From a virus, in the IMG/VR virus record IMGVR_UViG_3300026518_000022, positions 1 to 40,387 of that record: a stretch of 40,387 nucleotides of DNA, one strand, 5' to 3'. Numbering within the stretch: position 1 is the first letter of the stretch; each line of letters starts with the position of its first letter. Position numbers and translations under genes: made by a program. A model generated the notes under the pieces. That model was not told the origin of the DNA and searched no databases. It saw nothing but the letters and a program-made list of their open reading frames with translations. This document shows positions 4,009 to 33,112 of this stretch, piece after piece.

Positions 4009-4020
4009 GGAACTAAACAA

Positions 4021-4401: not shown

Positions 4402-4565
4402 TGAACTTAATAGAAGCACTAGATATTCTTACGAGACTTAATCAACTTAAGTCAGTAGGAAGTAACTACTCTAAAGTATCTAAACTGCTGTCTTCTGAGG
4501 CTACTACATATAACTTAGAACAAGCTAGAGAGCTATTAATTAACATAACGAAGGTTAAGTCATGA
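4401..4565 (+). CDS. Small hypothetical protein, 54 residues
   Basis: Begins at a TAATG overlap with the MazG-like gene and ends at an ATGA overlap with thyX, which is good evidence for a coupled gene. The product begins MNLIEALDILTRLNQLKSVG and is basic and fully helical-looking, with no cysteines or membrane segment. No family recognised. Confidence 0.65.
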   Translation: MNLIEALDILTRLNQLKSVGSNYSKVSKLLSSEATTYNLEQARELLINITKVKS

Positions 4566-5429: not shown

Positions 5430-5453
5430 TCAGGGATTAACTATAATCCCTGA
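5430..5453. terminator. Perfect hairpin at the junction of convergent operons
   Basis: A 10-bp perfect stem (TCAGGGATTA with TAATCCCTGA) and 4-nt loop. It lies after the last plus-strand gene and contains the stop codon of the last minus-strand gene (5441-5443). A run of five T precedes it on the plus strand, so on neither strand does a U-tract follow the stem; it may be a pause or RNase barrier rather than a classical intrinsic terminator. Position strongly suggests a role in ending both transcription units. Confidence 0.55.
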
Positions 5454-8400
5454 TAAACTGCATTCCATAGTGGAACTTCTGTACCACCATCTATTAATCT
5501 CATCATTCCGTGATATGGGTTAATTCTACGTAAAAAGTTACTAATGAAGTTACTATCAAGTATGTCTGCACTAATCAAACTAGTACCAGGTAAATTCTGC
5601 ACTAATGCTTTATCTATAGCCACTTGGGTAGGTGATTGCTTAATCAACTTTAAGTTAACTCTTTGGGAACCAGCAAAGAATTTCCAAAATGCCTCTGGAC
5701 CCATTCTCTCTAACCACTGTACTAACTTGCTATTAATTATTTTTGTATAGTTAATAAAGTTATCTATAGAATTCCTCATTGATACTTCTTTACTTTGTCC
5801 CTGTTCTAATCCATACCAGTATGTTGTAGCTCTAAAGTGGAAGTCACTATCTTGTGTTACTTCAACCAAGAACTTACCAGCAGCAGATCTTCTAGTTAAG
5901 AATAATGTCTGAATAGCCTTATTGATTTTATTATTACCAACAAATTTATCAATAGCCTCTTCCGCACTCTTACTAATAGTATTTGTGTCTTTCGTGAGTT
6001 GTACATCATCTACTACTGACTGATACATACCCTTATCCATTAATGGCTTAATAGGATTACTAGCCATTTTAGCCTCTAAGTCCTCTATCTGTGACTTTAA
6101 TCTAGCCCTACCATTAACTGATGGGTCTCTGTATATTCTACGTAACCTAGCTATCTCTTTCTCATCTATTTTCCAATCACGTAAACTACTCCTACTTAAC
6201 AACAACAGCTGAAATGCTTTCTTTACTGGCATACCACTGTAATACAAAAACTTAGCATTACTTACAATATTATTCCATATTGTCTTAGGTAGTTTAACTA
6301 CAACATTACTTCGTAATAAGCTAGCAAACTCCATGAACTTACTTTCAGCTATCCTAGCATTTCTTCTTTCTTTTTCACTTAACCTATCAAACAATTTACT
6401 ATTAGCTATTGTAGCTTCATTATAACCAAACAACTGCTTTACTAAATCTTTACGTACTCTGAATACTCGTCTCTTTGGTAGGTTAGCTATCTGAGCCTCT
6501 AGCCCAACTCCCTTACGTGCAAGCTCATATGCACTACTACCTTTAATATTTATTGTATTCTTTAACTCTTCCATATCTAGTTGTTTATTCTTTTCAATAA
6601 CGTACTTACGAGCATCTGGTGGTAATAACCCCCATAGCTCTTCACCTTTAGTCTTTATACCATAGTCACCTTTATCTATTAGTTCACTATGTCCTGCTTT
6701 ATACAGTTTTTTCCTATCTACTTCTGACAACTCTATTTCTTTAGCATTTATAGTTAAAAACAGATGGGTGGTATCCTTCTTTGCATCTCCTGAATCATCA
6801 AAGCTCTTACTATCCTCATATATTATATCTAATATATGACGATTATTTAAATCACCCATAGGTCGTGTACCAATATGCCCTTCACTCTTAGCTATTACTT
6901 GTGTACCTCTAGTATCAAGGTCTAACAATGTAATCTTTTCATCTTTACTAATTACATACCTGAAATCAGTAATTTGACCATCATGTCCATATACTGGTTC
7001 AATCCCAGCTTCCTTGTAACCATTAGCATTATACTTGTTAGCAATATTATTAACTACATCTCCATGTGTTTTGAATATCATTCTATCACTCATATGGGGG
7101 TTACTCATTCTAACTTTATCATACATTAGTAATCCAGGTATCTTATCTCTCTGAAGGGATATTGTACCGTCTACACGCTTAGTTCTATATGTATTATGGG
7201 TAACAAACACACCATACTTAGTCTTATCATTATCAGCTACAGAGTTAACTAACTTATGGGATAATCTATATCCTTGCTTCTTTAACTCTCTTTCATTAGT
7301 CATTGGCTGAATTACTACTTCTTTGTTATCATTAATAGTATCCCTAACCTGACCTTTAATATAGTTCTCTGGCTCAATCAGCTTAACTTCATCTCTATTA
7401 GCTATTTGTAGACCTCTAGCATAGCTCATATACTCTGTAACACCTTGACTATCCTTAGCGATCAATTCTACTAGTGTGTCTTTAGCAAGCTGGGATGTCT
7501 TTTCTAGTGCCTTTAATGATATCAATTTATCAACAGTACCAATCAAGTCACTATACTTATTCTTCCCACCATACCCTACAGCATATCTAGTACCAAATAG
7601 TCTAGTTATGTTCTCAGCATTAGTTCTTAGCCCTTTACCAGTTATCATAAATTCACTACTAGCTTCACTCATATCTACCATTATTTGACCAGCAAATACC
7701 TCTTCCCCCTCACTAATAGTTTTCTTACCAACTAACTCAATCTCAATCTTTTCAATTTCTTTACGTAACTTACTACTATCTTTAGCTAATTTACTAATCT
7801 CATCAGCATCCATATTAAGTGCTTGCAAGTCACTACTCATTACAGTTGCCTCTAGTGCATTATTATACTTATCATTCTCAGACTCCCTAAAGTCTACCTT
7901 AGTAAACATACCAGTAATAATATCATGTAGTGTACCTTTGTATCCTTGCTCCCTCATTCTATCTACGTGTGAACGGAATTCCATAGTCAAGTCAGTAACT
8001 TGCTCTAACGTCTTTCTACCACCACTGAAGTCCGCCATCAACTCTCTAACGAAATGTTCTTCCGTAATACCAATATGAGCAAAGAACTTTGACCATAAGA
8101 TAGCTACATCTTTTCTATCGAAGTCTTTACCTGTCTGAGCTGCTAATCTAATCCGTGGCATTACCTTCATTAGTTTGTACCACTTCTTGATTGTACTGTC
8201 ACTCTTCTTTGGGAACATACCATTATCTACGTTAATTAACTCAGTCCATTGCTTGTAAGTCAACTTAGCTTTACCAGGTTCTCCAATTGTTACTTCACCT
8301 AGCTTATCTATTAGTGGAGTTACTACCTCGTTTACTCTCTCAGTTACCTTATTTAAACCATTGCTGACTTTATCATTAATAGCAAACCCTCGTTTTCTAG

Positions 8401-9649
8401 CAGCTAGTGACCCATACTTATCTTGTACTTCAGTTAGCTTGTATACGACATTAACTGCCTCTTCAAGTAAGTTATCTCCTTTAATAGGCTTAACATTATC
8501 AAACAGTTTACTAACTACATCTACAAACTTTCTCAGCATAGTTTCAAATATACTTTCATTTGGTTTCACATCTATCTTTAGCTTCTTAACTGGTAATTGT
8601 TCCATAGCTAGCTGTAGCTGTTTATTAGTCATTAAGTGGGCCATGAACTCTTGAAGTCTACTATTAGCATCACCATTTAGGAATATGTAATCATATCTCT
8701 CTTTAGCTTTAGCCTTCTCTGCTTCACTATACATCTTACCTTCAACCAACAGCGATTCCCAAGTGAGTTTATCTTTAGCTTGAGTATACAACCTACGTAT
8801 ATGCTGCTTTAATTGTTCACCATCAGTACCTACATTATATGCAAATACATAGTCTAATGCAGCATGAACTATCTCATGTACCATAGTTTCTTCATTACTC
8901 ATTAGGAACCTATTTCTAGCTTCTTCGCCTTTATTACCTCTAACTTCAATACTTACTTTGCCTGTAGCCGAGTTATATTGCCCATAGGGCTCTGTAATCG
9001 CTTCTAGCTTACTAGTATCTATATCTATCTTCATATTAGCTATGTTCTTAGACCAACTCATAATGCTCTCTACTACCATACCAAGTCTATCTGAGTGGGC
9101 CTTATCATACCCACCAGCTGTACTGTCTTGGTCTAGTCTTCTCATCTCTGCCTGGACATTAAGTATTGTACTACTAGTTATATCCCCATCAAGCAATGTT
9201 CTATCTACTTCCTCATCACTCATATCACGGTTACTTAGTATATACCTATCTCTACCCACTTTTATTGCTTCAGTAATCTGACTACTTGATATAGTCGTAC
9301 CTTTACTCTTAGTTGACTTACTTGTATCATTACCAGCAGCAAATGTGTATTGTCTATTGTCATCCATTATAACTTTAGTAACGTCTGCTTGACTATCATA
9401 TTCCATTGCTTTAACTGTACCGTAATGAGTAGTTGCTTTCTTAGTAGGGTCAGCGAAGTTGTAGTGGATTGGTATCTTACCACTCAACCTATCTTCCATT
9501 GCCTTGCTAGCTGAGTTCTCTCTCATACTTACATACCTATTTTCAGCACTTAATGCTCTCTCATACTCAGCTACCTTTAACTCTAGCGCATCACCTTTGT
9601 AGCCCTTCTCTTCAAGTACTTCACGTATAGTATCAATTCCACAACCCAT
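5441..9649 (-). CDS. Large virion-associated protein with HExxH metallopeptidase motif; possible split-off C-terminal part of the virion RNA polymerase
   Basis: 1402 residues, last gene of the late operon; its ATG overlaps the preceding stop (TAATG). Residues 258-262 read HEIVH inside TMVHEIVHAALDYVF, the zinc-binding helix of gluzincin/metzincin-like peptidases, with Glu334 in LQEFMAHLM a plausible third ligand. The rest is long, charged and mostly helical, with no other motif I can name; around residues 1060-1180 an FRVRKDLVKQLFGY and KTIWNNIVSNAKFL arrangement resembles segments of giant phage polyvalent virion proteins. The length is close to that of the C-terminal region of N4 vRNAP (about 1400 residues), which is needed for packaging the polymerase into the virion and is missing from the vRNAP here. 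Likely an injected internal protein; the peptidase activity is inferred from the motif only. Confidence 0.7.
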   Translation of the reverse strand: MGCGIDTIREVLEEKGYKGDALELKVAEYERALSAENRYVSMRENSASKAMEDRLSGKIPIHYNFADPTKKATTHYGTVKAMEYDSQADVTKVIMDDNRQYTFAAGNDTSKSTKSKGTTISSSQITEAIKVGRDRYILSNRDMSDEEVDRTLLDGDITSSTILNVQAEMRRLDQDSTAGGYDKAHSDRLGMVVESIMSWSKNIANMKIDIDTSKLEAITEPYGQYNSATGKVSIEVRGNKGEEARNRFLMSNEETMVHEIVHAALDYVFAYNVGTDGEQLKQHIRRLYTQAKDKLTWESLLVEGKMYSEAEKAKAKERYDYIFLNGDANSRLQEFMAHLMTNKQLQLAMEQLPVKKLKIDVKPNESIFETMLRKFVDVVSKLFDNVKPIKGDNLLEEAVNVVYKLTEVQDKYGSLAARKRGFAINDKVSNGLNKVTERVNEVVTPLIDKLGEVTIGEPGKAKLTYKQWTELINVDNGMFPKKSDSTIKKWYKLMKVMPRIRLAAQTGKDFDRKDVAILWSKFFAHIGITEEHFVRELMADFSGGRKTLEQVTDLTMEFRSHVDRMREQGYKGTLHDIITGMFTKVDFRESENDKYNNALEATVMSSDLQALNMDADEISKLAKDSSKLRKEIEKIEIELVGKKTISEGEEVFAGQIMVDMSEASSEFMITGKGLRTNAENITRLFGTRYAVGYGGKNKYSDLIGTVDKLISLKALEKTSQLAKDTLVELIAKDSQGVTEYMSYARGLQIANRDEVKLIEPENYIKGQVRDTINDNKEVVIQPMTNERELKKQGYRLSHKLVNSVADNDKTKYGVFVTHNTYRTKRVDGTISLQRDKIPGLLMYDKVRMSNPHMSDRMIFKTHGDVVNNIANKYNANGYKEAGIEPVYGHDGQITDFRYVISKDEKITLLDLDTRGTQVIAKSEGHIGTRPMGDLNNRHILDIIYEDSKSFDDSGDAKKDTTHLFLTINAKEIELSEVDRKKLYKAGHSELIDKGDYGIKTKGEELWGLLPPDARKYVIEKNKQLDMEELKNTINIKGSSAYELARKGVGLEAQIANLPKRRVFRVRKDLVKQLFGYNEATIANSKLFDRLSEKERRNARIAESKFMEFASLLRSNVVVKLPKTIWNNIVSNAKFLYYSGMPVKKAFQLLLLSRSSLRDWKIDEKEIARLRRIYRDPSVNGRARLKSQIEDLEAKMASNPIKPLMDKGMYQSVVDDVQLTKDTNTISKSAEEAIDKFVGNNKINKAIQTLFLTRRSAAGKFLVEVTQDSDFHFRATTYWYGLEQGQSKEVSMRNSIDNFINYTKIINSKLVQWLERMGPEAFWKFFAGSQRVNLKLIKQSPTQVAIDKALVQNLPGTSLISADILDSNFISNFLRRINPYHGMMRLIDGGTEVPLWNAVYQGL

Positions 9650-10323
9650 TATTTACTTCCTTTACATCTACTATTTATTTCACTAATTATATCTTCATCT
9701 ATGTTACTATTAGCTTCCCCAGTGGTGAATTTAGCGTCTACAATATCTGAATAAGCTATAGTCGCTTTGCTATACTTCTCTCTCCTACTACTTGCAACAA
9801 TATCCTTAACTTTGCTTAACCCAGCTTCGTATATAACTTTTACAGCAGACTCAACCCTAGCTTTTACCCCTGTACCGGAAGCAGGTATATCAATTACTAG
9901 TCCTGTACTATACTCATACACACTATTTTTGCCTTTAGGTAGAAATAACTCCATACCATTATTCATTTGGTATATCACACCTGTAAACTTATTACCATTA
10001 ATATCCTTAAATTCGATAGTCTTACCAGCTTGTGGTCCACCTTTCTTAAGTTTATCAGTTATTGAGCCTAATTCTTCTTCTAATGTATATGCTTTTGTAC
10101 CTTTAACTAAGACTTGCTCACTCGGTAATTTCGTAGTACCTTCTTTAACGGTATTATTAGACTTAGCTATAGGGGTACTTTTACTAATACGCTTCAGGCT
10201 ACTAGCTAGTCCCAGGAACTTATTAATACCATCTCTCATTTCTGGAAAGGCATTGTAAGCAGGGCTATTAACTAATGCCTGTAGTCTATCATATGACGCT
10301 TTACCTATCTCACATTTACTCAT
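9649..10323 (-). CDS. Hypothetical virion-associated protein between vRNAP and the 1402-residue protein
   Basis: 224 residues. The ATG directly follows the vRNAP stop (TAAATG, zero gap) with GAAGGA as binding site inside vRNAP, and its own stop overlaps the next start, so three proteins are made from one coupled run. The middle (roughly 75-140) looks like a small beta-rich domain: KGTKAYTLEEELG, then TIEFKDINGNKFTGVIYQM and GMELFLPKGKN. The N-terminus MSKCEIGKASYDRL resembles the opening of the next protein (MGCGIDTIREVLEE). No family recognised. Probably packaged with, or assembled onto, the virion RNA polymerase. Confidence 0.7.
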   Translation of the reverse strand: MSKCEIGKASYDRLQALVNSPAYNAFPEMRDGINKFLGLASSLKRISKSTPIAKSNNTVKEGTTKLPSEQVLVKGTKAYTLEEELGSITDKLKKGGPQAGKTIEFKDINGNKFTGVIYQMNNGMELFLPKGKNSVYEYSTGLVIDIPASGTGVKARVESAVKVIYEAGLSKVKDIVASSRREKYSKATIAYSDIVDAKFTTGEANSNIDEDIISEINSRCKGSK

Positions 10324-13300: not shown

Positions 13301-16300
13301 GGTAATGTATGGTCCTTATCATACCATGCTTTATTCTTACTAGTTATTGTGTATGTTGGTATATCATTATCTGTGGTAGCTTTAGCTCCGAATATAACCT
13401 CTGAGGGTGTCTTGAACCCATCAACGAACCCATCCATCTCTTTAGTTCGTGATTTATTATTCATCACAACTAACCCACTATCTTCTAATGCCATCATACC
13501 AAGTATACCAAGCTCTATCTTCATCTTAGCTTCTATTCTTTCTGTAGGTTTACCAACTTCATGAGGTTGTTTAGTAAGTCCAAGCATATTGTATATCTCA
13601 CTACCCATAGCATCTATACCTTGATTCAGCATACCATCGAACTTACTAGCTATCTCTCTATCCTCCTCACTAATTATATGCTTCTTATCTCGACCAAGTA
13701 ATGAGCGTATATCATCATCACTTCTCATTTCTTTACGGCTATCTGCTGCATCTACTGTTAACCACTTACTAGCAACAGTTGCTATTGCTTTCATAACTGC
13801 AGGATCAGTAGCCCATACGAATTCATTTACTGGTTTACCCTCGTTACGTTCTACTGGTACTTGCCACTTAAGTAGTCTACTCACACTCTGGAAACCAGGA
13901 TATCTAGTGTCTGGGTTCTCACTAATATCATATAAGTTAGTAACTTTCTTAGCGTCATGTAGGAATATCTTCTCCACGCTATTATGTACTCTACCTATTA
14001 CCTTAGTTGCTAACTTTACCTGTACTTTTAACACACCTTCATCATCTTCATTTTTAGCTATTAGCTTCTCTGTAACTTCTTTAGGTGTAGCTTCAAGTAA
14101 GTCCTCATAGCTAAGTCCCACATATTCTATATGCCCTTTTGGTACAGATGGTTTGAAGTATGTGCCTAGTGATATACTTAATAACTTATCTGACTCTGCT
14201 TGTTGTTCTTTACTTAGTACTTTAGTTGCATACCCTTCACTTGCTTTAGCCTGTGTTTTGTTTTTAGTAGGGTACTTACTAGTGCTGGCTATTAAGTGTT
14301 TACCAACTGTACCATTAAGCTTAATGGACGTCTTGAGCTCATCTAGTGTGACCTTATAATCTTGTAGATTATCCTTAGCTGTAACTATACCTTTATATAA
14401 CATATTAAGTTCTTTAGTGTCATTACTATTCTCAGCCCTACTAATCTTATTACTAGCCTCATCAATGATACCTTGTACTTTACGTCGTAAATTACTAGTT
14501 GGTTTTAGTAACACATTTAACTCTTTTATCTTCTCGTCTAGTGGGGCTATCTTACGGTCAACTTGTATCTTTAAGTTGCGTACTCTGGCTTCAATACTAA
14601 TACCACCATTTACTACACCATAGCTCTTTAGCTCTTTGTACATAGCATCTATACTGTCTTCCATATCCGCTATCTCGGCTTCTAGCCTAGATAGTTCTTG
14701 TATTTCCTCTTCCGTAGCTAAGTTATCTATTACTTCTTTTTCAGTTTGCTTAGTGCTTTTTCCACTATCAGCTTCTTCTGCTTTAGTAACTTCAACTTTC
14801 TCTGTAGTAGTACCTTTTGCTTCTTTATATCCTTTTCCGTTACTATTTTCTTTACTGTACTTTTCATATGCTATCCTTTCTTTTTCGTTATTATCTATCT
14901 CTGCTCTTAACTCATTTAGCCTAGCTATATCTTTACCTGTCGGCTCATAACTACTATCCTTATAATAGTTACTAGTAACATTACTATACAGCTCACTATC
15001 TTTGTCACTCATTTTTGACTGCTCTTCTGGAGTGAATACTGGTAATTCTATCTTCTTACCAACTTTAACTTCCTTCGTAGGTGGTGTGGGCTCTACAGTT
15101 GGCTCAACTACGTTAGACTCTGGGCTACCCTTATATATGAACTTATCAACTATCTCTGTGAGCAAGTCGTTCTCTCGTTTGATATCATTATATAGTGGAT
15201 ATGTATTACTAGTAAATGCACGTTCTTTATCCCCCTCTCTAGCCCCAGCAACTGGTATACTTATCTTAGATATATCTTCCTGACTGTCACCTCTAGCTTT
15301 TGCTTCAGCTACAGCTATCTCATACTTTTTCCTACCGTTATCAAATGCGTCAAACTTATCATCTTGGGACTTCAGGAACCCAGCCATGTTGTCCTTCATT
15401 AACTCTTTAAACTCACTACTTGAGTTAGGGTCATTTAGTATACTTACATAGTCTAGTATACCTGGTAACCTCTCACCATTATATGTACCACCAAATAACT
15501 TCAGTCTTAGTGAGTCTTTTGATGTAGCCTTACCTTTACTAGCTGCAACTTTACCTAAATTATTGTCTTGTACAAATTCACTGACTAGTTTTTCTGCTTT
15601 CAATTGCTCTAACTTGGCTGTGTCCTCTTTTGTAGCTTCTGACTTAGCTTCTATCTCTGCTATGTCTTTAGCTACCTCATCTGGAGCTCTGTTACCAAGT
15701 GGAGCAGTACCGTTGAGTACACCTACCATCTTTTTACCTAGTACAATTGCATCTATTACGTCTTTCTTATGTTTAGTGGCTGCCTCATCTAGGTTACTAG
15801 TCTCTAACGAAGCTAAGTGGTCTTCTAAGTCAGTAACTACTGACACTAATCCTTTCTCACCACTTCTACCGTTTAGCAGTTCTTCCTTATTTAACTCTTC
15901 GTGAGTACCGTCTAGTACTTTACCATACAAGTCATCCTCACTGATAATCTTAATTGCTTTAACTTTATTAGCTGCTTTATTATAGTCCTTGATTTTATCA
16001 ATACCTACTTCAGAACCATTAGTTGATTTTGCGTCTTTAACATCTTTAGCAACACCTATAGCATTCTTTCCAGCATCTAGTACAACACTCCCACCTTTCA
16101 GCCCAACACCTGCAAATGAGCCTATTGCTGTTGAACCTATTATTGACTTGACTGCCTCATTATCATAATACTCTGCAAACTCTTTATCCTTGAAGCCATC
16201 AGTACCATACTTCTCGGCATATATCTGTATAGCTTGTTGTAGGCCCTCTGTGGAACCCTCAACTACTGCAGACTCAGTCATCTTACCACTAGCACTAGCT

Positions 16301-18141: not shown

Positions 18142-18154
18142 AGGTATCTCCACG

Positions 18155-18200: not shown

Positions 18201-21200
18201 TTACTTTAACCTCATGCCATCTTTTATTATTTTATCAGTATAGTACGTAGAGGCTTCTTTACCTCCCTCATGGCGTATCATTACTTTAATTAACTTAACC
18301 ATATCTACATTTTTAGGTAACTTACCATCTATATTAGCAATACCTTGACTTTTAGCTACAGACTTAGCGTAGTTGAGCAGGTTAGCTGGTAGCTTACCAG
18401 TACGTTTATACTCTGTTCGCTCTTTAGACTCTGCAGCGTATCTCAATATAAGTTCTTTAGGTGTTGATACTTTTGTTAAGTTAGCCTCTAGTACTTTATT
18501 TAGTGCAAGTATACCTAACTCGGGGCTACTAAACTCAACAAATTTATTACTATTTTTATTAATCTGCCCATTCCATACAGTACCAACTACAGTTTTAATG
18601 TTACCAGCATTATTACTTTGTATTGATTTAATCTTACTCTTAGGGAGTATGGGTTTAGTATCTAACAATGCTATGTACCTATTTATAGCTAGCTTCTTTG
18701 CCTCTTTGCTGCCATTGAATTGTAGTACCTTTGTTAGCTCATCTTTCTGGTCTTTGGTAGTAGAACTATCATTCATTAGCATACGAAGTACACTAGCAGG
18801 TGCTTGTGATGCTGCAATATGTAGTAAACTAGCATGTGTAAACGTAACCCCAGTAGCAGTATTTGAGATAACTGGTTTAGATAATCCATTACGAGGATTT
18901 TTAAGGTTATTATCCCTAAGCACTCTTAACTTATCAGCAGCTGTAGACCCTGACCTATTATTGCTATCTGGAGCATCTCCAGCTGAGTGATTATGCACGT
19001 CTATAGCACTATTTATGCCAGTCACATATATATTCTTTTTAATTTGGTTAGCCGTGGCTATCTTGTTCTGATTTGCTATTTTACCTAGTCTATTTTTTAC
19101 TGCTGAGATTGCCTCTTCCTTATCTGTAGCTCCTAATGTTTTAACTATAGCCTTAACTTCTTTTTGTGTGCCATTTTCTAGTTGATTTAATGTTGCCTCA
19201 TCTACACGAAACTTATCAGTCACATTAATATTAGTGTATACTGTTTTAGTAGAAGCAGGGTTATCTTTTATATTAGATATTCTCCTACTAATTTGAGCTT
19301 TCTGCTCTTCTAGGCTTACTTTTAAGTCTTGTCCTACTCCAGCTGCAATCCTTTCATCTATTGTAGCTATCTCAGTATTTAACCCATTGATTATCTTATT
19401 TTGTGATCGAGACATAACACCAACTTCTTCTACCGATCTACTTCCTACTGTCCTAACTCTACCCCCTATATTTTTAGCAGTAGTATTTATACTTTGACCA
19501 GTACTAGTGAATCTAGGTGTTACATTAGTGGCTAGTAGTTTATCACCTAAGTTTTTAGCTCCTACTTTCTCTAGTCCATAACCAATAGTTTTTGCCACTC
19601 CTTGTACTACCTTACCTACTGGGGCAGCACTTACTACTGTAGTAGCTAATGCATGATGAAAATTTGAATTCTGCTCACTATCTCTAAACTTACTATCTTT
19701 ATTGTACTTAGATTGATATATCAACTCACCTATCATAGCTCTCTCATCGTACTTAGCCGTTCTATATAATACATTTAATGTATCAGTCCTATTAGCTGTA
19801 CCTAGCTTCTTACCTATCTTAGTTATTAAGTTCTCTACCTTAACTAAGTGTGTTTGGTCTAGGTCTTGTCTATGAGCTCCATCATTTGTGCCTAGTGCTG
19901 CATCTAACACATTACCAGTGAAACCACCAAAGTTTGATTTTTTAGCTGCATTATACTCTTTTTCTAACTGCTTAAATGTTAAATTGTGACTAGCCGTATA
20001 CCCTTTAGTAGCCGTAGCCGGGAATTTCTTTTGTTTACTATACAGTAATTTATCTGCCTCAGTTAATATACTTGGGTTTACAGCGTCAACAACAATACCA
20101 TCTCTAGTCTCAATTGGTCTTACGGAGTTGCTATTTAAGAACGCTATTTTTTCAGCTTTACTTTTACCTTGTTCTGCTTTTTTATTTTTAGTATATATAG
20201 CTTTACGTATTTTGAGTATCTCTTGTCCAAACCCTTTCTTATCATCATTACTAAACTTACCTGTTTGGTCTGATAGGTTATCCTGGTAGAACTTTAACTG
20301 ATCTTGCAGGTTAGCCACAGTTGGGGCTATTGTTGGGTAAGTGACTGTCTGAGGTGTTACAGATGTAACTACACCATCCTTAGGAGGCACCTTAGCATCA
20401 GTTGATCCATTAACTACTATAGCTTCCCCATTACCACTAGTAGGACTACTTACTGGCGTATACCCATTTAACTTCTCTTGTAGCTTCTTACTAAAGTCAG
20501 TTGTTCTATCCTCATTTACTTGCGTGTTATCTCTCTGTAGTCTAGCTATATTAGCTTGAGCTGTACTTAAGTCAACTGAATCGGCATTCGATATTACACC
20601 AGAAACTGCTGCAGGTAGTTGGGGTATAGTATCAGTATTTTTTAGGTACTGAGTAATGCTTGCGTCCCTTACATCTAGTTTCTGTTTATCGTTAAAATAA
20701 TTAGCATCATTTGGTCCAACATAGCTATGCTTACCTTTTCGTAGTCCACTCTGTACGTATCCTGCTATTACATTTGGAGAGTACCCTTGAGCTTTCAATT
20801 TCTCAACATAGTTACGTACTTTCTCTTGTACCTCAGGTGAGTAGCTAATAGCCCCTTTAGTTGTTTTAGTAGCTAGTAACTTGTTAATTAGTGAACTTAC
20901 TTTCTCATTACGCTCTAACTTCTTGTTGTATACATTAGTATCATTTTTGAACTTACTCATAGCTCCAGTAGCTACTGTGTTACCACTCTTAGTAGCTGCA
21001 TCAGCTATCCTAGCAAGTACCTTAGTTAAGTCACTATTAGCTGTTTGCAATGACTTCTGTTTCTGTATTTGAGCTATTCTAGCAGCTCCTCTAGCAGCTC
21101 TTAACTCTGTAATAGCTTCTGGGCTATTTGGATTATCTCTTAGCACTCTTTCCCATTTACGGACATCTGATTCCCTTAAGTCAACACTATCTGTTGAGTT

Positions 21201-21917
21201 ACCTATAAACTTACCTAGATTCTCCTGGTTATCTAACTTAACTTTACCAGAAACAAGGAGCTTTTGGAATACTGGATTATTATCTTGAAGTTGAAATATA
21301 TGCTTAGCTTTAATTATACTATTATTATACTCCTTAGTACGTAACAACTCTTCTCCAGATAACCCATCAATACTTCTTGGCTTAGCGTCTTTAAGTGCTG
21401 CTATATTAGTAGCCCCAACCTCTGTATTTAGGTCTAATTGTTTATACTTACTACCTGTTAGGGTTATATTATCTATAAGTTTAGGGTCTAACTGAGTGAA
21501 TGCCTCATTTATTGCCCCATCTCTAACTCCAGTATTTAAGCTATCAAGTGCAGCTTTTTTGTTAGCATCTGATGCTGTCCTAGCCTCTGTTCTATCTTGT
21601 TGCCCTTGTCTAAATGCCAATGTTTTCCTATATTGATTAGTCAGTCCATTAACTTGGTCAGTTGTCATATTACTACTATTACTTTGTAGGTACTTCTGTA
21701 AGTCTTCAGCTGTACCTGTGTTAGCAATATTTAACCCATTCTTATACGTACTATCTTGTAACTCTTTAGTATTGATTTTACCTACTTTCTCTACTGTGGT
21801 ACCAGCAGCTGTGAATGCATCCCTTAGTGAGCTTATTGCTTGTGATTGTAGTTGTTGTCCAGCAGAGCTATTAAACGCTGCTCCTTGGATTCTTATGTAT
21901 GGATTATATGATGGCAT
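18201..21917 (-). CDS. Internal virion (ejection) protein with C-terminal peptidoglycan-hydrolase-like domain
   Basis: 1238 residues, start preceded by AAGGACAAATAG. Most of the protein is hydrophilic and helical (Lys, Asn, Gln rich), as in phage internal proteins ejected with DNA. The final 137 residues (1102-1238) form a distinct unit starting NNAGNIKTVVGTVWNG, then KFVEFSSPELGILALNKVL, ELILRYAAE and ending MVKLIKVMIRHEGG. This follows the pattern NNPGN-R...F..F.sp..GiRA.....L......T..eii..yA... of phage virion domains related to P5-type lytic enzymes, and would open the cell wall during entry. Catalytic residues are not established by me. Located directly before vRNAP, as expected for a protein that helps the polymerase enter. 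Confidence 0.72.
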   Translation of the reverse strand: MPSYNPYIRIQGAAFNSSAGQQLQSQAISSLRDAFTAAGTTVEKVGKINTKELQDSTYKNGLNIANTGTAEDLQKYLQSNSSNMTTDQVNGLTNQYRKTLAFRQGQQDRTEARTASDANKKAALDSLNTGVRDGAINEAFTQLDPKLIDNITLTGSKYKQLDLNTEVGATNIAALKDAKPRSIDGLSGEELLRTKEYNNSIIKAKHIFQLQDNNPVFQKLLVSGKVKLDNQENLGKFIGNSTDSVDLRESDVRKWERVLRDNPNSPEAITELRAARGAARIAQIQKQKSLQTANSDLTKVLARIADAATKSGNTVATGAMSKFKNDTNVYNKKLERNEKVSSLINKLLATKTTKGAISYSPEVQEKVRNYVEKLKAQGYSPNVIAGYVQSGLRKGKHSYVGPNDANYFNDKQKLDVRDASITQYLKNTDTIPQLPAAVSGVISNADSVDLSTAQANIARLQRDNTQVNEDRTTDFSKKLQEKLNGYTPVSSPTSGNGEAIVVNGSTDAKVPPKDGVVTSVTPQTVTYPTIAPTVANLQDQLKFYQDNLSDQTGKFSNDDKKGFGQEILKIRKAIYTKNKKAEQGKSKAEKIAFLNSNSVRPIETRDGIVVDAVNPSILTEADKLLYSKQKKFPATATKGYTASHNLTFKQLEKEYNAAKKSNFGGFTGNVLDAALGTNDGAHRQDLDQTHLVKVENLITKIGKKLGTANRTDTLNVLYRTAKYDERAMIGELIYQSKYNKDSKFRDSEQNSNFHHALATTVVSAAPVGKVVQGVAKTIGYGLEKVGAKNLGDKLLATNVTPRFTSTGQSINTTAKNIGGRVRTVGSRSVEEVGVMSRSQNKIINGLNTEIATIDERIAAGVGQDLKVSLEEQKAQISRRISNIKDNPASTKTVYTNINVTDKFRVDEATLNQLENGTQKEVKAIVKTLGATDKEEAISAVKNRLGKIANQNKIATANQIKKNIYVTGINSAIDVHNHSAGDAPDSNNRSGSTAADKLRVLRDNNLKNPRNGLSKPVISNTATGVTFTHASLLHIAASQAPASVLRMLMNDSSTTKDQKDELTKVLQFNGSKEAKKLAINRYIALLDTKPILPKSKIKSIQSNNAGNIKTVVGTVWNGQINKNSNKFVEFSSPELGILALNKVLEANLTKVSTPKELILRYAAESKERTEYKRTGKLPANLLNYAKSVAKSQGIANIDGKLPKNVDMVKLIKVMIRHEGGKEASTYYTDKIIKDGMRLK

Positions 21918-21927: not shown

Positions 21928-22488
21928 TTAGTTATGTACTTCATAGTTACTAGAGATTAAGGTACTATAATCACCTTTACCTTTAAACTGCTTAGTAGCA
22001 TTAGCTGCTGCATTTAATCCTGCTGTGTTGTAAGCTTTAGCTGCATCTGCAAATCCTGCTGTACCTTTTAACTGATTTACATCTGTTACTCCATACTGTG
22101 TATTTAGGGCATCTGTTGCTAGATTTCTATTGAACTGCTCTTGCCCACTAGCTACTCCAGCTAATCCAGCCAATCTATTCTGATTCTGGTTATACTGAGC
22201 TACATTTAATCTAGTGTCTGCATTATGCTTATTCTTCTCAGCTTCTATCTGTGCCTTAGCACTCTTAGCTGCCATATATGCACTAAATATACTACCAGCT
22301 GCTTGTAGCCCTCCACTGATTGCTGCTCCTGCCCCATCAGATAATCCTGTAGAACCACCACCAGATAATCCTGTAGAACCACCACCAGGTGCTTTTGGGA
22401 AACTACCCCCACCGATACTACTTGTTTTAATTACTGTTGGGTCAAATACAGTTTTTAACTGTACTGGATTAAACACTGAGTCTACCAT
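21928..22488 (-). CDS. Small internal virion protein, Gly/Ala-rich
   Basis: 186 residues; ATG preceded by TAGGAGAATATT. The N-terminal third is a Gly/Ser/Pro linker with an exact duplication of eight residues (GGGSTGLS twice). Then comes a hydrophobic Ala/Gly stretch (AAISGGLQAAGSIFSAYMAA, about residues 55-74), a helical AKAQIEAEKNKHNADTRLN segment and an Asn/Gln/Ala-rich tail. This layout, one amphipathic or membrane-seeking helix plus a coiled helix, resembles the small ejection proteins of podophages such as T7 gp14. Own promoter candidate just upstream (22520-22530). Exact role inferred from composition and position. Confidence 0.65.
   Translation of the reverse strand: MVDSVFNPVQLKTVFDPTVIKTSSIGGGSFPKAPGGGSTGLSGGGSTGLSDGAGAAISGGLQAAGSIFSAYMAAKSAKAQIEAEKNKHNADTRLNVAQYNQNQNRLAGLAGVASGQEQFNRNLATDALNTQYGVTDVNQLKGTAGFADAAKAYNTAGLNAAANATKQFKGKGDYSTLISSNYEVHN
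22339..22386. repeat. Two exact tandem copies of a 24-bp unit inside a virion gene
   Basis: Copies at 22339-22362 and 22363-22386 are identical and in frame, giving two GGGSTGLS octapeptides in the linker of the 186-residue internal protein. Copy number could change by slippage without breaking the frame. Confidence 0.9.
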
Positions 22489-22540: not shown

Positions 22541-24631
22541 TTAACTTATATCTACTTTTATACTACGAATATCCATACTATACTTACTTCTATAGTCATA
22601 TGAATTTCTCATTGAGTCTTTCAGGTACATACCACTAGCTATATATCTATACTTATCTCTACTCATACTAATCGATGCCTCTGGTTCTGTACTTAGTATC
22701 CACGCTACCTCACTTGGGCTTAAGTCACTAGCTGCATCTTTAGCTGCTTTAATTTTAGCCTCTAGTAACTTACTCTTACTCTTTATCTGAGCCTCAGTAT
22801 TAGCTAACTTAGCTAACGCACCACCTTCTATTTTATCCCCTATCATCTGCCCAGCCATTGCTATACCTTGAGCTATTACTGTGTCTATTAAGAATGCCTC
22901 TGCAGCAGTTATTGCCACTGCCGTGGATCCTTCTGCCAGTAATACCTCCATTGCCCCTATTGCTGGTGCTGTACCACTTCCCCATGTGAATATTGTTATC
23001 ACTATTATTATTATTATTATTATAATCTTAAGTATACTGAAGAACTCTGGTGTCTGGTACCATTTCAGGTGGGTTACTGTTAAACTAAATACTACTAACC
23101 TAAATGACTCAACAAACAACTCTCCTCTCTCTGCTGGGCTCATACTTACCACAGCATCGAATACCAATGGTATGTATAGTGGTGTTGATGAGTCATTTAA
23201 GTTACTACTCAACACATTAGCAAACCCTCCGTGGTCTATAGCTGTCATACCGACTATACCACCTAATGTGTACTCTTCTCTAACTGTCTCAGTAACTTGC
23301 TTATACACAACTAAGTCATCTCCTACCACACTTGTGAAGCACTTACCTACATCAGTTGACTTACTTTCAGCTCTATATACTCTACTACCTGCTTGATAAT
23401 TATATGCTATATTATACCTACCGTGACTAATCTTACCATAGTTACTTGTATTGGTTAAGTTACCAGCTGTACTTACTTGTTTAGTAGTTTCTGCCATATA
23501 CTTAGCCATTAACCATATAGCCTTCATTACTGCCGGGCTTGTACTCTTAGCATCCATAGTAAACATTATTGTAGCATCTGTGATACTATCTAAGTCCGCT
23601 AAGGTTGGTCTACTACATACGCTAGCTGTAGCTGCATCCATACTCATACCTAGCTGTCGTAATATAATATTATACTCCTCAACTAGTTTACTTCTAGTGC
23701 CTAACTTATCATAGTTAGTTGTTGGCAACTTAGTCTCTTTATCATTTACTGTAGCATTGTAGTAATTAACATATGTACTATCACTGATACCATTAATGTT
23801 ATTACCATTCTCTCTAATAGGTATCATAGGCATGAAGTTAATCGCAGTAGTAACATTAGTCCCATCAGGCACTATTGATTGTCCTATGTTTGAGGATGTA
23901 GGCTCAGCAAAGTAGTAAGTGTTCCCATTATATGTATAGTGTACCACATACTGTAACAGTGGGTTCTCTAAGCTAACATTAGGTACAGCTACAGCTACTC
24001 CACTGCTATTATTAGCTACTATCATGTAGTACCCATTAATAGCATCTAATGTATTACTAATATATGTTAGTACTTGTCCATTATATGTAAATGTATCGCC
24101 TACCATACCATGTAACTTATACATCATACTTCGGATATATTCATTATTATTAGGTACACTAACTACTGCCGACGTTACTACTGCAGTTGGTTTACTTAAC
24201 ACTATACGTAGATTCTTTTGTATCTTTACTAAGTCCAGCACATTAGCGTATATATCACTAGTTGGCATAGTAACTTCTTTAAATGCCCCCATTAGGTAGA
24301 ACGGTGAGTTAAACTTAGCTCTCTGAGCTTTACCATTATACTTAATACTATCTGTAACAGCATTTGGGTTGTTATCTACTGTATACTTAACTAATGCTTT
24401 AAGTAAGGAGTTATCCTTATCCTTAGCCAGTTGGATATATTCTGCATTGACTGTGACAACATCTTTATCCTTCACACCTAGTAGCCCAAATAGGAATGCA
24501 GCTACAGGTTCTACCACTTTATCTACTACCCAATGAGCTACACTAACTACAGCACTCCATACACTTCCTAATCCTATAGCGTCCATTACTGGGGATACTA
24601 TCTTATTTACGAAGTTTACTACTGCACTCAT
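22541..24631 (-). CDS. Virion structural protein with a single poly-isoleucine membrane segment
   Basis: 696 residues; GGGGAAGTAGT precedes the ATG, which overlaps the previous gene's stop. The N-terminus has two hydrophobic amphipathic stretches (about residues 1-35 and 36-52), then a long beta-rich domain with Asn/Tyr-rich turns, then FFSILKIIIIIIIIVITIF (about 530-550), a transmembrane helix with eight consecutive Ile, then an Ala-rich segment and a basic Tyr-rich tail. Position between the KAS gene region and ejection proteins, and the membrane helix, point to an internal virion protein that enters the host envelope during DNA delivery. No family name can be assigned with confidence. Confidence 0.7.
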   Translation of the reverse strand: MSAVVNFVNKIVSPVMDAIGLGSVWSAVVSVAHWVVDKVVEPVAAFLFGLLGVKDKDVVTVNAEYIQLAKDKDNSLLKALVKYTVDNNPNAVTDSIKYNGKAQRAKFNSPFYLMGAFKEVTMPTSDIYANVLDLVKIQKNLRIVLSKPTAVVTSAVVSVPNNNEYIRSMMYKLHGMVGDTFTYNGQVLTYISNTLDAINGYYMIVANNSSGVAVAVPNVSLENPLLQYVVHYTYNGNTYYFAEPTSSNIGQSIVPDGTNVTTAINFMPMIPIRENGNNINGISDSTYVNYYNATVNDKETKLPTTNYDKLGTRSKLVEEYNIILRQLGMSMDAATASVCSRPTLADLDSITDATIMFTMDAKSTSPAVMKAIWLMAKYMAETTKQVSTAGNLTNTSNYGKISHGRYNIAYNYQAGSRVYRAESKSTDVGKCFTSVVGDDLVVYKQVTETVREEYTLGGIVGMTAIDHGGFANVLSSNLNDSSTPLYIPLVFDAVVSMSPAERGELFVESFRLVVFSLTVTHLKWYQTPEFFSILKIIIIIIIIVITIFTWGSGTAPAIGAMEVLLAEGSTAVAITAAEAFLIDTVIAQGIAMAGQMIGDKIEGGALAKLANTEAQIKSKSKLLEAKIKAAKDAASDLSPSEVAWILSTEPEASISMSRDKYRYIASGMYLKDSMRNSYDYRSKYSMDIRSIKVDIS
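23001..23027. repeat. TAT-type trinucleotide microsatellite
   Basis: A run of consecutive ATT/TAT units within the 696-residue virion gene encodes its eight-isoleucine stretch on the minus strand. Slippage would add or remove whole Ile residues, changing membrane helix length but not the frame. Confidence 0.8.
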
Positions 24632-25128
24632 ACTACTTCCCCAATCTTGATACCGAGGAGTTTTAAGTATCTTAGCCTGCTTTTATCTAACTTAACTGTT
24701 AGGTAGTTATTAATTGTTTGATGGTACCTGATTAATGATAGTTTAGTAGCCACACTACTCCACATACTTATATCTCTTGTGTGTGGGTATATTCTAATAG
24801 TATTTGGTTTAATTGCTAACAACCAGGACAGAAGTACAATACTATTGATTCTATTTTTCCTATCTATTAGCCATAGTACCCTAGCCTCTATGTATCCATT
24901 ACCCTCATAATTAAGAACATATGTAAATCCAGTTCTTGCACCATCTGTCACTAAACTGTACTGTGTAGCCTCTCGCATATCCGCTAGATACTTACTATTA
25001 CTACCATTAGTTTCCTTATCTGAAAATGACTCCATAATAGTAGTGTAGTCCTCTACAACGCTACATGGGTAGTCCTTAACTATCTCATATAGCTTACCTT
25101 TATAGCTTATTGAGTACACAACTACCAT
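24628..25128 (-). CDS. Hypothetical protein coupled to the ketoacyl synthase gene
   Basis: 166 residues. Its ATG lies 29 nt inside the end of the ketoacyl synthase gene, with AGGGAAC upstream, and its stop overlaps the next start by ATGA, so its translation is tied to the enzyme. The middle contains GFTYVLNYEGNGYIEARVLW followed by a helix and TIRIYPHTRD, an alternating strand-helix-strand order that could fit a GNAT-type acyltransferase, but the pyrophosphate loop is not clear and I would not assign the fold on sequence alone. The coupling makes a role in transferring or using the acyl product worth testing. It might equally be an unrelated virion component. Confidence 0.6.
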   Translation of the reverse strand: MVVVYSISYKGKLYEIVKDYPCSVVEDYTTIMESFSDKETNGSNSKYLADMREATQYSLVTDGARTGFTYVLNYEGNGYIEARVLWLIDRKNRINSIVLLSWLLAIKPNTIRIYPHTRDISMWSSVATKLSLIRYHQTINNYLTVKLDKSRLRYLKLLGIKIGEVV

Positions 25129-25975
25129 AAAAGTTCCCTATCCCACTAGCTGCACATAATATTTTACCTTTAATAAACTCATCATCTGCTACCACACATA
25201 GCTCTAATATCCCACTAACTCCCTGAGCGTGGCCTATCTTATCTTTTAGTAATATAGTTGGCATACCGTCAGTCATGTTAGCTTCAGCCTCCATATTCTG
25301 ACTAGTACCTGTACCGTGGGGATTAACATAATCACACCCTTTTGTATCTACCATATCATAGCCATTACTACTACTATAGAATGGACTACCACTATAGCTA
25401 AATGCCCATTTAGTATCAGTAACTTCTAAGTTTGATTTGTTATTACTTAGCTTCATAACTACAACACCATCACTTGGGGTTACGTTTATTCCATGTTCCT
25501 CAAATATTCTAATCGTATTGAATGCTGTACGCTCTTCAGCTATTATTATTACCTCATCTACTGTACAGTCGGTAAGTAGTTTCTCTGCTTCATACATACT
25601 ATGAATACTACTAGCACAAGCATTTCCGTTTATATTAGCATATACTATGTCTTCTTTAAATGTCATCATACTTATCCACTTATGCATCATGTAACTACTA
25701 GTCTCTTTAACTAATGCTGTACTCATGTTAATGGGTATCTTATTATACCTTTCAATAAGGTTGCTACTGGCTTGTCTAGCCTCACTATTACTAACTAACG
25801 CCCCACCAGCATACAATACAGCTACTCTACCAGTAGTCTTCATATTACTAATGTACTTCCTAAGTAATTTAGTATACTGGGTAGTCATATACTTATCTCT
25901 GACTATACCTTCTATACTTTTATACCCATCATTAACATAGTCTGCAGTTATATACTTATATGAATCTATATACAT
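25100..25975 (-). CDS. Compact beta-ketoacyl-ACP synthase (KAS, thiolase superfamily)
   Basis: 291 residues, against about 410 for FabF. KAS enzymes condense an acyl chain on the active-site Cys with malonyl-ACP, extending it by two carbons. Visible motifs: GNACASSIHSMYEAEKLL with nucleophile Cys120; CDYVNPHGTGTSQNMEAEA with His220 in the HGTGT motif; LLKDKIGHAQGVSG with Lys244 and His249, the same five-residue spacing as FabF Lys335/His340; and near the end AASGIGNFYGSCVL, in the place of the Gly-rich GFGG gate loop. So the full Cys-His-His set plus Lys is kept, while the N-terminal half and inter-motif loops are shortened (Cys to His is 100 rather than 140). The ATG overlaps the end of the ACP gene by 10 nt. 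Placed among virion genes, which is unexpected. An inactive KAS-like role cannot be excluded. Confidence 0.85.
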   Translation of the reverse strand: MYIDSYKYITADYVNDGYKSIEGIVRDKYMTTQYTKLLRKYISNMKTTGRVAVLYAGGALVSNSEARQASSNLIERYNKIPINMSTALVKETSSYMMHKWISMMTFKEDIVYANINGNACASSIHSMYEAEKLLTDCTVDEVIIIAEERTAFNTIRIFEEHGINVTPSDGVVVMKLSNNKSNLEVTDTKWAFSYSGSPFYSSSNGYDMVDTKGCDYVNPHGTGTSQNMEAEANMTDGMPTILLKDKIGHAQGVSGILELCVVADDEFIKGKILCAASGIGNFYGSCVLNKL

Positions 25976-26214
25976 AGCTCAACCTTATCAACTATATCTT
26001 TTAATGTGATTGTTGCCCACTCTATACTATCAAAGGGGTCACCCTCAATTCCATTGAAGTACCCAAATCTAGCGTCTAAGTCTAAGAATAATACAGTATG
26101 GCCGAAGCTATCTAGTTCTGCTGTAGACAACAAACTATTTTCATCCGTAATAATTAAGCCATTCTCATCTGATATAGCCTCATTAATTATATCTTTTATC
26201 TGATCCCTAGTCAT
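25966..26214 (-). CDS. Acyl carrier protein
   Basis: 82 residues, standard ACP size, acidic. LLSTAELDSFGHTVLFLDLDARFG (shown only in part: ELDSFGHTVLF, residues 33-43) matches the DSL phosphopantetheine site, with Ser36 at the same number as in E. coli AcpP; the usual Leu is Phe. Helix II (residues 36-50) keeps the hydrophobic/acidic recognition face, and FDSIEWATITLKDIVDKVE fits helices III and IV. The binding site AAAGGATATATC precedes the ATG. It overlaps the start of the ketoacyl synthase gene, so the two make a carrier-enzyme pair. It would need a host phosphopantetheinyl transferase and malonyl supply, since none is encoded here. Confidence 0.85.
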   Translation of the reverse strand: MTRDQIKDIINEAISDENGLIITDENSLLSTAELDSFGHTVLFLDLDARFGYFNGIEGDPFDSIEWATITLKDIVDKVELCI

Positions 26215-29431: not shown

Positions 29432-30868
29432 TTAAGCATAGCTAAATCCATATCCTTTATACACTCCATCATCTCTCTTTAGTGCTCTCTTAGCCCCATT
29501 TCTCCAGCTATCTTCACTACCAATACCTGTCTCATTTGCTAATGACCTACCAGCTTCTCTAACTGTACTATATTGAGTAACTTTACAATTCTCTTTATTA
29601 GTAGCTACTATTGGTCTATGTGTGCCCTTAGCTGTGGGTTTCCAATCAGTAGGTAACTTATCATAGTCTGAACCATATTTGAATACTAACCCTTTATGGG
29701 ATTTACGTGTGCCTATAGCTACATCGTGGATATGGTCTGTAGCTAACTTATACTCTGATAACTCCACTACTGCTGTACTAGTATCTTTGAATCTACCTAC
29801 AAGCTCACCGTCTAGTTTTAGTACTACTATTTCTTCTTGTAGGTGGGTATATTTAACTGTAGCAGGTTTTACTACTTTAGGTGTACTTAATTTAGCAACT
29901 GTAGGTTGTTTAGCTCTTTGAGTTTTCACACTTATAGTATCGAATACTCCCAGGGGCAACTCACTACTACAGTGAGACCACTTATATCCTGCATGGTTGT
30001 TTGCATGCCCTAGGCATACAGCTGATATTCTATCTTCTCTAGCCTTTAACCCTAGTTTTACTAATGTATTCTGAGCATCTCTTACAGATTTATACCTAGC
30101 AACTACTTTACCAGTATCTCTATCTACCTGCTCTACAGCTTTCCAACCAGCCCTAGCTGAGTTCTCAGCTAATGTTATCCATCTTGCATTGAACATATTG
30201 TATCCTAGGCTACTGTCTGTTCTATCTATAGATGGTCTATCTCCTACATTATGTAGTCCTGCTTTTATTTCTTTGGCTAACAGTTCATACTCTCCAAGCA
30301 TGTCTCTCGCAAAGCCTTCAAACGTATGCCAGCCAGCTTGTACCGTTATACCCTTAGCCCCATATTTTGGGTATGCTGTACTATTAGGATTATAACATCT
30401 CTGAATCATACCTCTCCATACTGCATAGAACTTAGTACCACTCATACCATGAGTCCTACAAGCCTCACTGGAGGCTACTCTATCATTACTGGCTATCCTA
30501 TGACTATTACTACAAGCTGCACAACTCTTAGCTCTTATACCATGACTACGTATGTCTGTGAATACCTTATTACAAGTATTACACATAAACTCTGCTTTAC
30601 GCTCTCTACGTACTACCCCTAGCTTTGTAGTAAATTCTACTACTCCTAGCTCTTTAATAATAGTTAAGTATTTACTTGGTTTCAATTTATTTTGTTTGGA
30701 TATTTGGTGGACTGATTGTAAACAACTTGGTTGTCGGCACGATTTACGGGAGTTTCCTAGCTTGGTGGGTAATTCTTCTATATTACTACATATAGGACAT
30801 CTATACATCCCATACATCATTCTAGTAGACTTATATTGTTTTATCTCTGTGTTGTGTAGCATTTCCAT
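29432..30868 (-). CDS. Free-standing HNH homing endonuclease with zinc fingers and NUMOD-type repeats
   Basis: 478 residues, inserted between the capsid gene and the next head gene. N-terminal cysteine pairs (C24/C27 with C44/C49, then C96/C99 with C116/C119) suggest two zinc-binding modules. Residues 140-240 hold the phage HNH-type nuclease unit: THGMSGTKFYAVWRGMIQRC, then RPSIDRTDSSLGYN and NARWITLAENSARA. Three C-terminal repeats of DNA-binding NUMOD1-like type follow (starting VEQVDRDTGKVVARYKSVRD, then EEIVVLKLDGELVGRFKD, then a third). Such enzymes cut an allele lacking them and spread by repair. Translation seems controlled by the hairpin at 30867-30906. Free-standing because it begins after the capsid stop; no intron core surrounds it. 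Confidence 0.88.
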   Translation of the reverse strand: MEMLHNTEIKQYKSTRMMYGMYRCPICSNIEELPTKLGNSRKSCRQPSCLQSVHQISKQNKLKPSKYLTIIKELGVVEFTTKLGVVRRERKAEFMCNTCNKVFTDIRSHGIRAKSCAACSNSHRIASNDRVASSEACRTHGMSGTKFYAVWRGMIQRCYNPNSTAYPKYGAKGITVQAGWHTFEGFARDMLGEYELLAKEIKAGLHNVGDRPSIDRTDSSLGYNMFNARWITLAENSARAGWKAVEQVDRDTGKVVARYKSVRDAQNTLVKLGLKAREDRISAVCLGHANNHAGYKWSHCSSELPLGVFDTISVKTQRAKQPTVAKLSTPKVVKPATVKYTHLQEEIVVLKLDGELVGRFKDTSTAVVELSEYKLATDHIHDVAIGTRKSHKGLVFKYGSDYDKLPTDWKPTAKGTHRPIVATNKENCKVTQYSTVREAGRSLANETGIGSEDSWRNGAKRALKRDDGVYKGYGFSYA

Positions 30869-32162: not shown

Positions 32163-33112
32163 CTTATCACCTTTATGTTTCCTAATGTTCAGAGTTGGTA
32201 GCTACACCATCTCCCGGGAATTACCCCAGCTATATGTTTCCGTATAGAGCAGACTATATCTTCACCCGTTCTGGGTGCTATGCACTTCCACCGCCAATAG
32301 CTTGCGGTGTACTCTACTAACTCTACTGAATCTATCAGTAGGTGTTCGATAGTCGTTGAACCTTACTTTCCATGACGTTCTGTATACCCATCTTCTCTCC
32401 CAAGTCTTTCGACCTCTTTGAGGATTTCAATAGCACCTTCTAAGGTTTTATGACTCTTCCATATACGTTTTCCGTTTATAGTTCGTCTCACAACAAATCT
32501 CCCTGTTGGTTTATGGAATGATATCCCAGTATACCCACTAGTGTTATTCTTGTGTTTACCTCTATTTCTACAATTCATACTTTGTGTAGTGACTTTCAAA
32601 TTACTTCTTGAATTATCTAGCCTATCTCCGTTTAAATGGTCTATAACGCTACCTTCTGGGATAGTTATCCCTCTTAGTACAGTTACAATCCAGTGAGTCC
32701 CTATTGTTGTACCTACACCAGGTATCCATATACCATGGTAAGCTTTACCTCTATTTCCTTTGAAAATATAGGAAGTTACAACCTCATCCTTTTTAAACTT
32801 ACCTTTGACTTTATCACCCCTAGTTCTTCTGATAGTTATATCATCTTCATCTAGGTAGAAACTATCTAGTATGTCTTGTCTATATTTTAGTGCAGCTAAC
32901 ATCTGTTACTCTCCTTTTGTTTTAGGTAGTATACAGTATATCAACTTAAACTTTTGTCATGTCAAATCTTGGCTGCTGATTGTCCAATCCTACACTTATT
33001 CATCACACTCTCAACACGAGGTGCTATATGTAGGCTCTAAGGAGTTTCCAGCAATTCACATAGTGAATTTAAACACTTATTAGCAATTCCTTGCTAACTA
33101 CCCTCACATTTT
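32163..33112 (-). ncRNA. Group I self-splicing intron in the major capsid gene
   Basis: 950 nt. Conserved core elements are all readable on the minus strand: P AATTGCTGGAAA (33056-33045), Q AATCAGCAGCCAAG (32981-32968), R TTCAACGACTAT (32360-32349) and S GAAGATATAGTC (32263-32252). P1 can form between exon CAACCU (33118-33113) and internal guide GGGUAG (33103-33098) with the required U-G pair at the splice site; the intron ends in G at 32163. Splicing joins CCT to ATG in frame. The endonuclease gene lies between Q and R, in the P6 region, and its stop is next to R, as in other phage IA-type introns. Confidence 0.92.
32363..32902 (-). CDS. Intron-encoded HNH homing endonuclease with AP2-like domain
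   Basis: 179 residues; GGAGAGTAACAG precedes the ATG. HNH core at about 86-112 (VIDHLNGDRLDNSRSNLKV, MNCRN), followed by an AP2/ERF-like DNA-binding domain (SGYTGISFHKPTGRFVVRR, residues 122-140, and GKRIWKS). The gene sits in the group I intron of the capsid gene, so it would recognise the intronless capsid site near the Gln50-Pro51 codons and drive spread of the intron. Intact frame implies recent or maintained activity. Confidence 0.92.
   Translation of the reverse strand: MLAALKYRQDILDSFYLDEDDITIRRTRGDKVKGKFKKDEVVTSYIFKGNRGKAYHGIWIPGVGTTIGTHWIVTVLRGITIPEGSVIDHLNGDRLDNSRSNLKVTTQSMNCRNRGKHKNNTSGYTGISFHKPTGRFVVRRTINGKRIWKSHKTLEGAIEILKEVERLGREDGYTERHGK

Follow-up and report, generated by a model that had tools for sequence, protein, structure and literature searches.

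In rhizobia, the acyl carrier protein (ACP) NodF and the ketosynthase (KS) NodE supply a special acyl chain, and NodA N-acylates the Nod factor (PMC9048898). Toxin acyltransferases of the HlyC type represent a second relevant system: ApxIC has a GNAT-like fold without CoA-binding elements and uses acyl-ACP as donor, its target protein is encoded in the same gene cluster, and lysine acylation activates this membrane-acting protein (PMC8339906). Genes for such proteins have also been described in phages. An acpP-fabF-fabG cluster occurs in three Rhodobacteraceae prophages, in the same order as in E. coli (PMC8224337), and gp30 of the cultured Alteromonas Schitoviridae phage R22Y is, according to the available part of the report, an ACP that was interpreted as an auxiliary metabolic gene (PMC11705849). 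The proteins that deliver DNA are best considered by reference to N4, whose tail plug is gp53; the channel through the outer membrane is gp52, and gp51 makes up the periplasmic tunnel (PMC12633501).

We analyzed a virus record of 40 kb (40,387 nucleotides; the whole stretch is hereafter called the window) that belongs to an N4-like phage. The virion RNA polymerase (vRNAP, phrog_2206) and N4-type portal (phrog_1216), capsid (phrog_1357), gp53 (phrog_2220) and gp54 (phrog_2050) were all matched, which places it among Schitoviridae-like viruses. The sole match in the genome collection was a contig binned in a Sulfurospirillum MAG, which gives no clear host. The vRNAP of the window is split (5441-18153), with the 2609-aa ORF covering positions 1026-1979 of phrog_2206 and a 224-aa ORF lying between it and the 1402-aa ORF. 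The relative G018 (L151) likewise has its vRNAP in two frames, of which one measures 6728 aa, while the relative G014 (L136) has a single 4262-aa frame. The major capsid protein gene is flanked by two HNH endonuclease genes (29432-30868 and 32363-32902), and the plus strand at positions 2-5170 encodes the large and small subunits of ribonucleotide reductase, a piece of a DNA methyltransferase and a thymidylate synthase-like ORF.

Between the gp54 and gp53 homologs we identified a compact minus-strand cassette, in which the gp54-like gene is followed, after a gap of 43 nt, by genes for an ACP, a KS and a 166-aa protein, and then by the gp53-like gene (Table 1). Neighboring genes overlap by 10 nt (ACP/KS), 29 nt (KS/third gene) and 4 nt (third gene/gp53-like gene). 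The ACP gene, among others, is preceded by a purine-rich sequence that resembles a Shine-Dalgarno site. A preliminary description of this DNA had reported an ACP-KS pair. The pair is real, but the description was incomplete: it left out a third gene, which overlaps its neighbors, as well as the link to the gene for the gp53 (tail plug) homolog.

Table 1. Cassette genes and neighboring virion genes in the window
Feature	Position	Strand	Basis or remark
Virion RNA polymerase, C-terminal part, separate 1402-aa ORF	5441..9649	-	
Virion RNA polymerase, N-terminal and polymerase part, 2609 aa	10324..18153	-	phrog_2206; N4-like marker
1238-aa protein, N4 gp51 position	18201..21917	-	Assigned by position only
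186-aa protein, N4 gp52 position	21928..22488	-	Weak phrog_2646 and T7_gp14 matches; alternative target
Homolog of N4 gp53, 696 aa	22541..24631	-	phrog_2220; candidate acylation target
Third gene of the cassette (166 aa), probably a GNAT-like acyltransferase	24628..25128	-	Inferred from position and X family
Compact FabF-type beta-ketoacyl synthase, 291 aa, Cys120/His220/Lys244/His249/Glu258	25100..25975	-	Pfam, family profile, alignment
Acyl carrier protein, 82 aa, Ser36 in LDSFG	25966..26214	-	Motif, family alignment, family profile; AAAGGA Shine-Dalgarno-like sequence upstream
Homolog of N4 gp54, 480 aa	26258..27700	-	phrog_2050; upstream boundary of the cassette

The KS features in the preliminary description, i.e., the place and length of the ORF, its overlap with the ACP gene, and residues C120, H220 (in an HGTGT motif), K244 and H249, were all correct. 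An HMM search, which had been proposed as a check, gave a partial answer: the window KS alone passed Pfam Ketoacyl-synt_C (21.3 bits, with a cut-off of 20.8), whereas the N-terminal Pfam KS domain was matched by its relatives only. When a profile of the window KS and 17 relatives was compared with PDB, solved FabF/FabB-type enzymes were found at 2e-9. Nine residues (C120, S122, H220, T222, T224, N227, K244, H249 and E258) were invariant in the 18 aligned KSs, and C120, H220, K244 and H249 were also invariant in 14 members of a sister clade (MW202545-like). The Cys-His-His-Lys set is thus common to the phage KSs and FabF/FabB; with all of these residues preserved, a condensing enzyme is more likely than a decoy. 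The phage KSs differ from FabF in that they are only ~290 aa long in the window clade, and the loop that contains the gate phenylalanine of FabF reads G-[LMI]-G, with Leu, Met or Ile. Among the matches listed in the profile scan, the closest relatives of the window KS were 27-50% identical over the full length; the window KS alone, used as an IMG/VR query, gave no matches. The window KS clade was found to be homologous to the MW202545 KS clade (hhalign, 3e-30, window row left out). A separate hhalign comparison, of alignments A7 and A2, gave 8e-7 after removal of the window row common to both. These profiles and alignments confirm, at the level of sequence, that the ORF encodes a compact FabF-type KS and uphold the homology and intact catalytic residues that had been claimed for it.

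The ACP ORF also read as previously described in its place, length and Ser36, with the motif being LDSFG. Residues D35-S36, which form the phosphopantetheine serine motif shared with AcpP, were invariant in 17 ACPs (the window protein and 16 further sequences). Here too, the proposed HMM check was divided: the window ACP alone had no match in Pfam, but PF00550 was matched by 3 of the 17 family members (best, 1.8e-4), and the family profile detected carrier proteins in PDB. With this profile, about 100 PDB chains were obtained at E <= 1 (best, 5e-5), and nearly all matches listed were carrier proteins; NodF (1fh1) was the third-best match, at 2.3e-4. As judged by these profiles and alignments, the assignment of the ORF as an ACP, also made in the preliminary description, is confirmed.

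We further checked the occurrence of the pair in related phages, as had been suggested, and found that it is not unique to the window; hundreds of IMG/VR stretches encode relatives. The ACP-KS(-third gene)-gp53-like arrangement was present at the equivalent position in at least 37 uncultured contigs, mostly N4-like; this and other counts from the viral scan are lower bounds, and the loci are partly redundant and do not represent independent events. In the window clade, the ACP was directly upstream of the KS in 35 of the 37 contigs listed, and an additional contig (L146, 9767-10858) contained a natural ACP-KS fusion in one 363-aa ORF. Homologs of the window third protein occupied the third-gene slot in 29 of these 37 contigs. 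Portal, capsid and plug homologs were present in most contigs of this clade, and vRNAP in 9 of 12. In N4 and 8 cultured Schitoviridae inspected, gp54 is followed by gp53 without the cassette, the one exception to direct adjacency being Vibrio phage SBP1, in which a putative homing endonuclease lies between them. Hence, the cassette is an insertion directly upstream of the plug gene in the window clade. Searches of the open-licence literature turned up no description of a virion operon with an ACP-KS-acyltransferase unit, which is also consistent with the earlier remark that no N4-type phage with such a pair has been described. R22Y shares with the window an ACP in a Schitoviridae phage, but the available part of its report mentions only the ACP gene and no KS (PMC11705849).

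A search of 50,697 phage records with the window KS revealed a single genuine phage match, MW202545. Most other KS matches in this collection were unannotated, appeared to be host FabF contamination and were not counted. In MW202545, the gene row consists of an ACP (IDSLD), a KS, a 146-aa gene (designated X) and a 640-aa "MGGVVSAV" protein. It represents a second, very different podophage lineage, with the order ACP-KS-X-"MSAVV/MGGVV" ejection-like protein. Among the matches listed, a family ACP was directly upstream of the KS in 127 of 132 non-window loci, and X directly downstream in 96 of them; starting from X, the KS was directly upstream in 63 of the 72 loci listed. The AlphaFold model of X (pLDDT 93, pTM 0.85) has the order H-H-E-E-E-H-E-H-E-E, and its best Foldseek matches in PDB were all GNATs or GNAT-like proteins (E 5e-6 to 1e-3, TM-scores mostly 0.45-0.6), including lysine acetyltransferase Rv0998, RimI and TofI, an acyl-ACP-using AHL synthase (3p2h, E 4e-4). 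Based on this model, X of the sister lineage is predicted to be a GNAT-fold protein. The canonical CoA motif, [QR]xxGx[GA], is rare in X (5 of 44 sequences, anywhere in the sequence), and no match was found between X and either T7 gp13 or PF11090.

The third gene of the window could be assigned less directly. Its protein, modelled by AlphaFold from the single sequence without relatives, had a pLDDT of 38, had no match to GNAT profiles, X, T7 gp13 or PF11090, and gave no matches when used alone as an IMG/VR query. Window-type third proteins fall into subfamilies that are connected in a chain (hhalign, 6e-6 and 6e-4). No sequence link between these proteins and X, T7 gp13 or Pfam GNATs was detected, and the CoA loop [QR]xxGx[GA] was present in none of 27 of them. 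Position, size, the apparent strand/helix pattern and the X family suggest that the window third protein is probably a GNAT-like acyltransferase.

We estimate the probability at roughly 0.47, slightly short of an even chance, that the locus is a dedicated acyl-ACP/ketosynthase/acyltransferase module within the virion-entry operon, acylating a virion ejection or plug protein. A broader version, in which many uncultured podophages use a self-contained set of ACP, KS and GNAT-type acyltransferase to lipidate a plug or ejection protein of the virion, is offered more tentatively. The proposal of the preliminary description that the phage makes or transfers an acyl group during virion assembly or entry is favored by the GNAT-fold third member in one lineage and by the fact that unrelated phages have kept the same gene order. 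In such a module, a host phosphopantetheinyl transferase would arm Ser36 of the phage ACP. The KS, with its intact Cys-His-His-Lys set, would load an acyl chain and condense it with malonyl-ACP, biasing the acyl group on the phage ACP; because the cassette encodes neither a reductase nor a dehydratase, the remaining steps would be supplied by host fatty-acid reductases. The third protein, which is without the usual CoA loop and whose GNAT fold was modelled in the sister lineage only, would then move the acyl group from the ACP to an amino group of a neighboring virion protein. Once attached, the acyl group may keep the plug or ejection protein in the tail, or help it to sense the envelope or to insert into the membrane during DNA ejection.

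The proposed logic of this cassette (a dedicated ACP, a ketosynthase and an N-acyltransferase) is that of NodF-NodE-NodA or of ACP-HlyC. However, the Nod system is rhizobial and its acceptor is a chito-oligosaccharide signal, whereas the cassette is phage-encoded and coupled to a virion gene. The CoA loop is generally missing in X and the third proteins, as it is in HlyC/ApxIC, with the likeness to HlyC/RtxC being by fold analogy only. To our knowledge, HlyC and ApxIC have no dedicated KS.

The presence of TofI among the matches of X is also compatible with a small-molecule route, in which the KS-ACP acyl chain would be placed by the GNAT-like protein on a free amino acid or similar compound. 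The N-acyl signal or lipid so formed, in a reaction like that of AHL synthases, would be released late in infection. Such a route is unlikely, considering that the third gene overlaps the plug gene and that X is fixed directly upstream of an ejection-type protein even when ACP and KS are elsewhere. For example, in L123 and L110 the ACP-KS pair is beside helicase or early-type genes, and X is elsewhere on the contig, directly before an MGAVA/MSAVG ejection-like protein. Similarly, in L239, X stays in place and the KS is found elsewhere on the contig. In three additional contigs (L205, L207 and L220), whose phages have apparently lost the KS, ACP and X are still adjacent, next to the ejection-like gene, as expected if the ACP is the donor for X. 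Thus, what stays constant is the placement of X (or the third gene) in front of the ejection protein; an ACP usually serves it, and the KS is usual but apparently dispensable. This pattern fits the ACP as acyl donor for X.

Against an acylation module, ACP-KS was located next to portal or other genes in L061, L063, L122 and L149, and X was not found on these contigs; such absences are weak evidence because most contigs are fragments. ACP-KS pairs outside the virion cluster in some phages, and the published view of phage ACP genes (PMC8224337, PMC11705849, PMC5463345), are in line with auxiliary metabolism, the usual reading of phage acpP, in which the fatty-acid synthesis or the membrane composition of the host would be boosted or redirected by the pair. 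We consider this quite unlikely for the cassette, in which the KS and ACP are divergent and shortened, reductase and dehydratase are missing, and the pair has stayed linked both to ejection genes and to a third gene of the GNAT type. In L061 (8941-12963) and L122 (9158-13005), ACP-KS is upstream of the portal gene. In the former, a gene for a small membrane protein lies between ACP and KS; in the latter, the ACP has a 178-aa gene of GNAT-like appearance upstream. In L055, L058, L066, L112 and L123, the pair is among small early-type genes, away from virion genes, and a SNF2-like helicase is near in several of these. In L149, a 128.6-kb contig of a large phage, a window-type ACP-KS pair has a clamp-loader-like ORF and small genes as neighbors, and no ejection genes are found in its vicinity.

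ACP acts as an assembly factor in mitochondrial and Muk complexes, and the phage ACP and its partners might likewise have a non-catalytic or chaperone role, e.g., holding the plug protein before tail joining. The genes overlap and are tightly coupled to a structural gene, as would suit such a role. In addition, T7 gp13, a probable scaffold protein according to its Pfam name, is in the equivalent place; like X and the third gene, it is a small gene directly before that of an ejection protein (gp14), although no ACP or KS is beside it. However, even very divergent members have kept Ser36 and the full set of KS catalytic residues without change. A purely structural role would not demand this, and we regard this explanation as improbable. 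Finally, the possibility that phage ACP/KS have no connection with virions and shut down lipid synthesis in the host by titrating its holo-ACP machinery or acyl pools would agree with the non-virion contexts of some pairs (L123, L110 and L149) but is very improbable given the location mostly in the virion cluster and the co-occurrence of X with the ACP-KS pair even when unlinked.

If the cassette is an acylation module, two proteins are candidates for its target, namely the plug (696 aa) and the 186-aa protein in the gp52 position, with the plug/ejection protein immediately downstream being most likely. Gly or Ser at position 2 of the downstream protein was strongly enriched compared to other ORFs, in sequences that are related and not independent. 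We dropped this feature as an N-myristoylation-like target signature: most cassette-less Schitoviridae gp53 proteins inspected also start with MGLFS, so there is no cassette-specific N-terminal acylation signature. That N4 works without the cassette also argues against an acylation module, as does the lack of a profile match between the window third protein and either GNATs or X. Separately, the gp51-position ejection protein of Salmonella phage TR2 (L175, 6570-8009) is annotated as "acyl-CoA reductase" (QSJ04059.1), probably a misannotation.

The presence, in this virus and in many unrelated uncultured phages, of an ACP, a chain-building enzyme and a probable acyl-transfer enzyme as one unit before an entry protein suggests that these phages chemically modify, and perhaps lipidate, their own DNA-delivery machinery. 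If true, acylation of the plug/ejection protein would be a step in phage assembly or entry for which we found no described precedent. Two PHROG families marked as unknown would also acquire a function, 28189 as phage ACP and 35856 as phage ketosynthase, and the usual view of phage ACPs as metabolic helpers would be revised. For T7-, P22- and N4-type phages, it has yet to be explained how ejected proteins that were packed in the virion turn into channels inserted in a membrane, and an acylation module encoded by the phage and linked to its plug/ejection genes would be a testable chemical answer.
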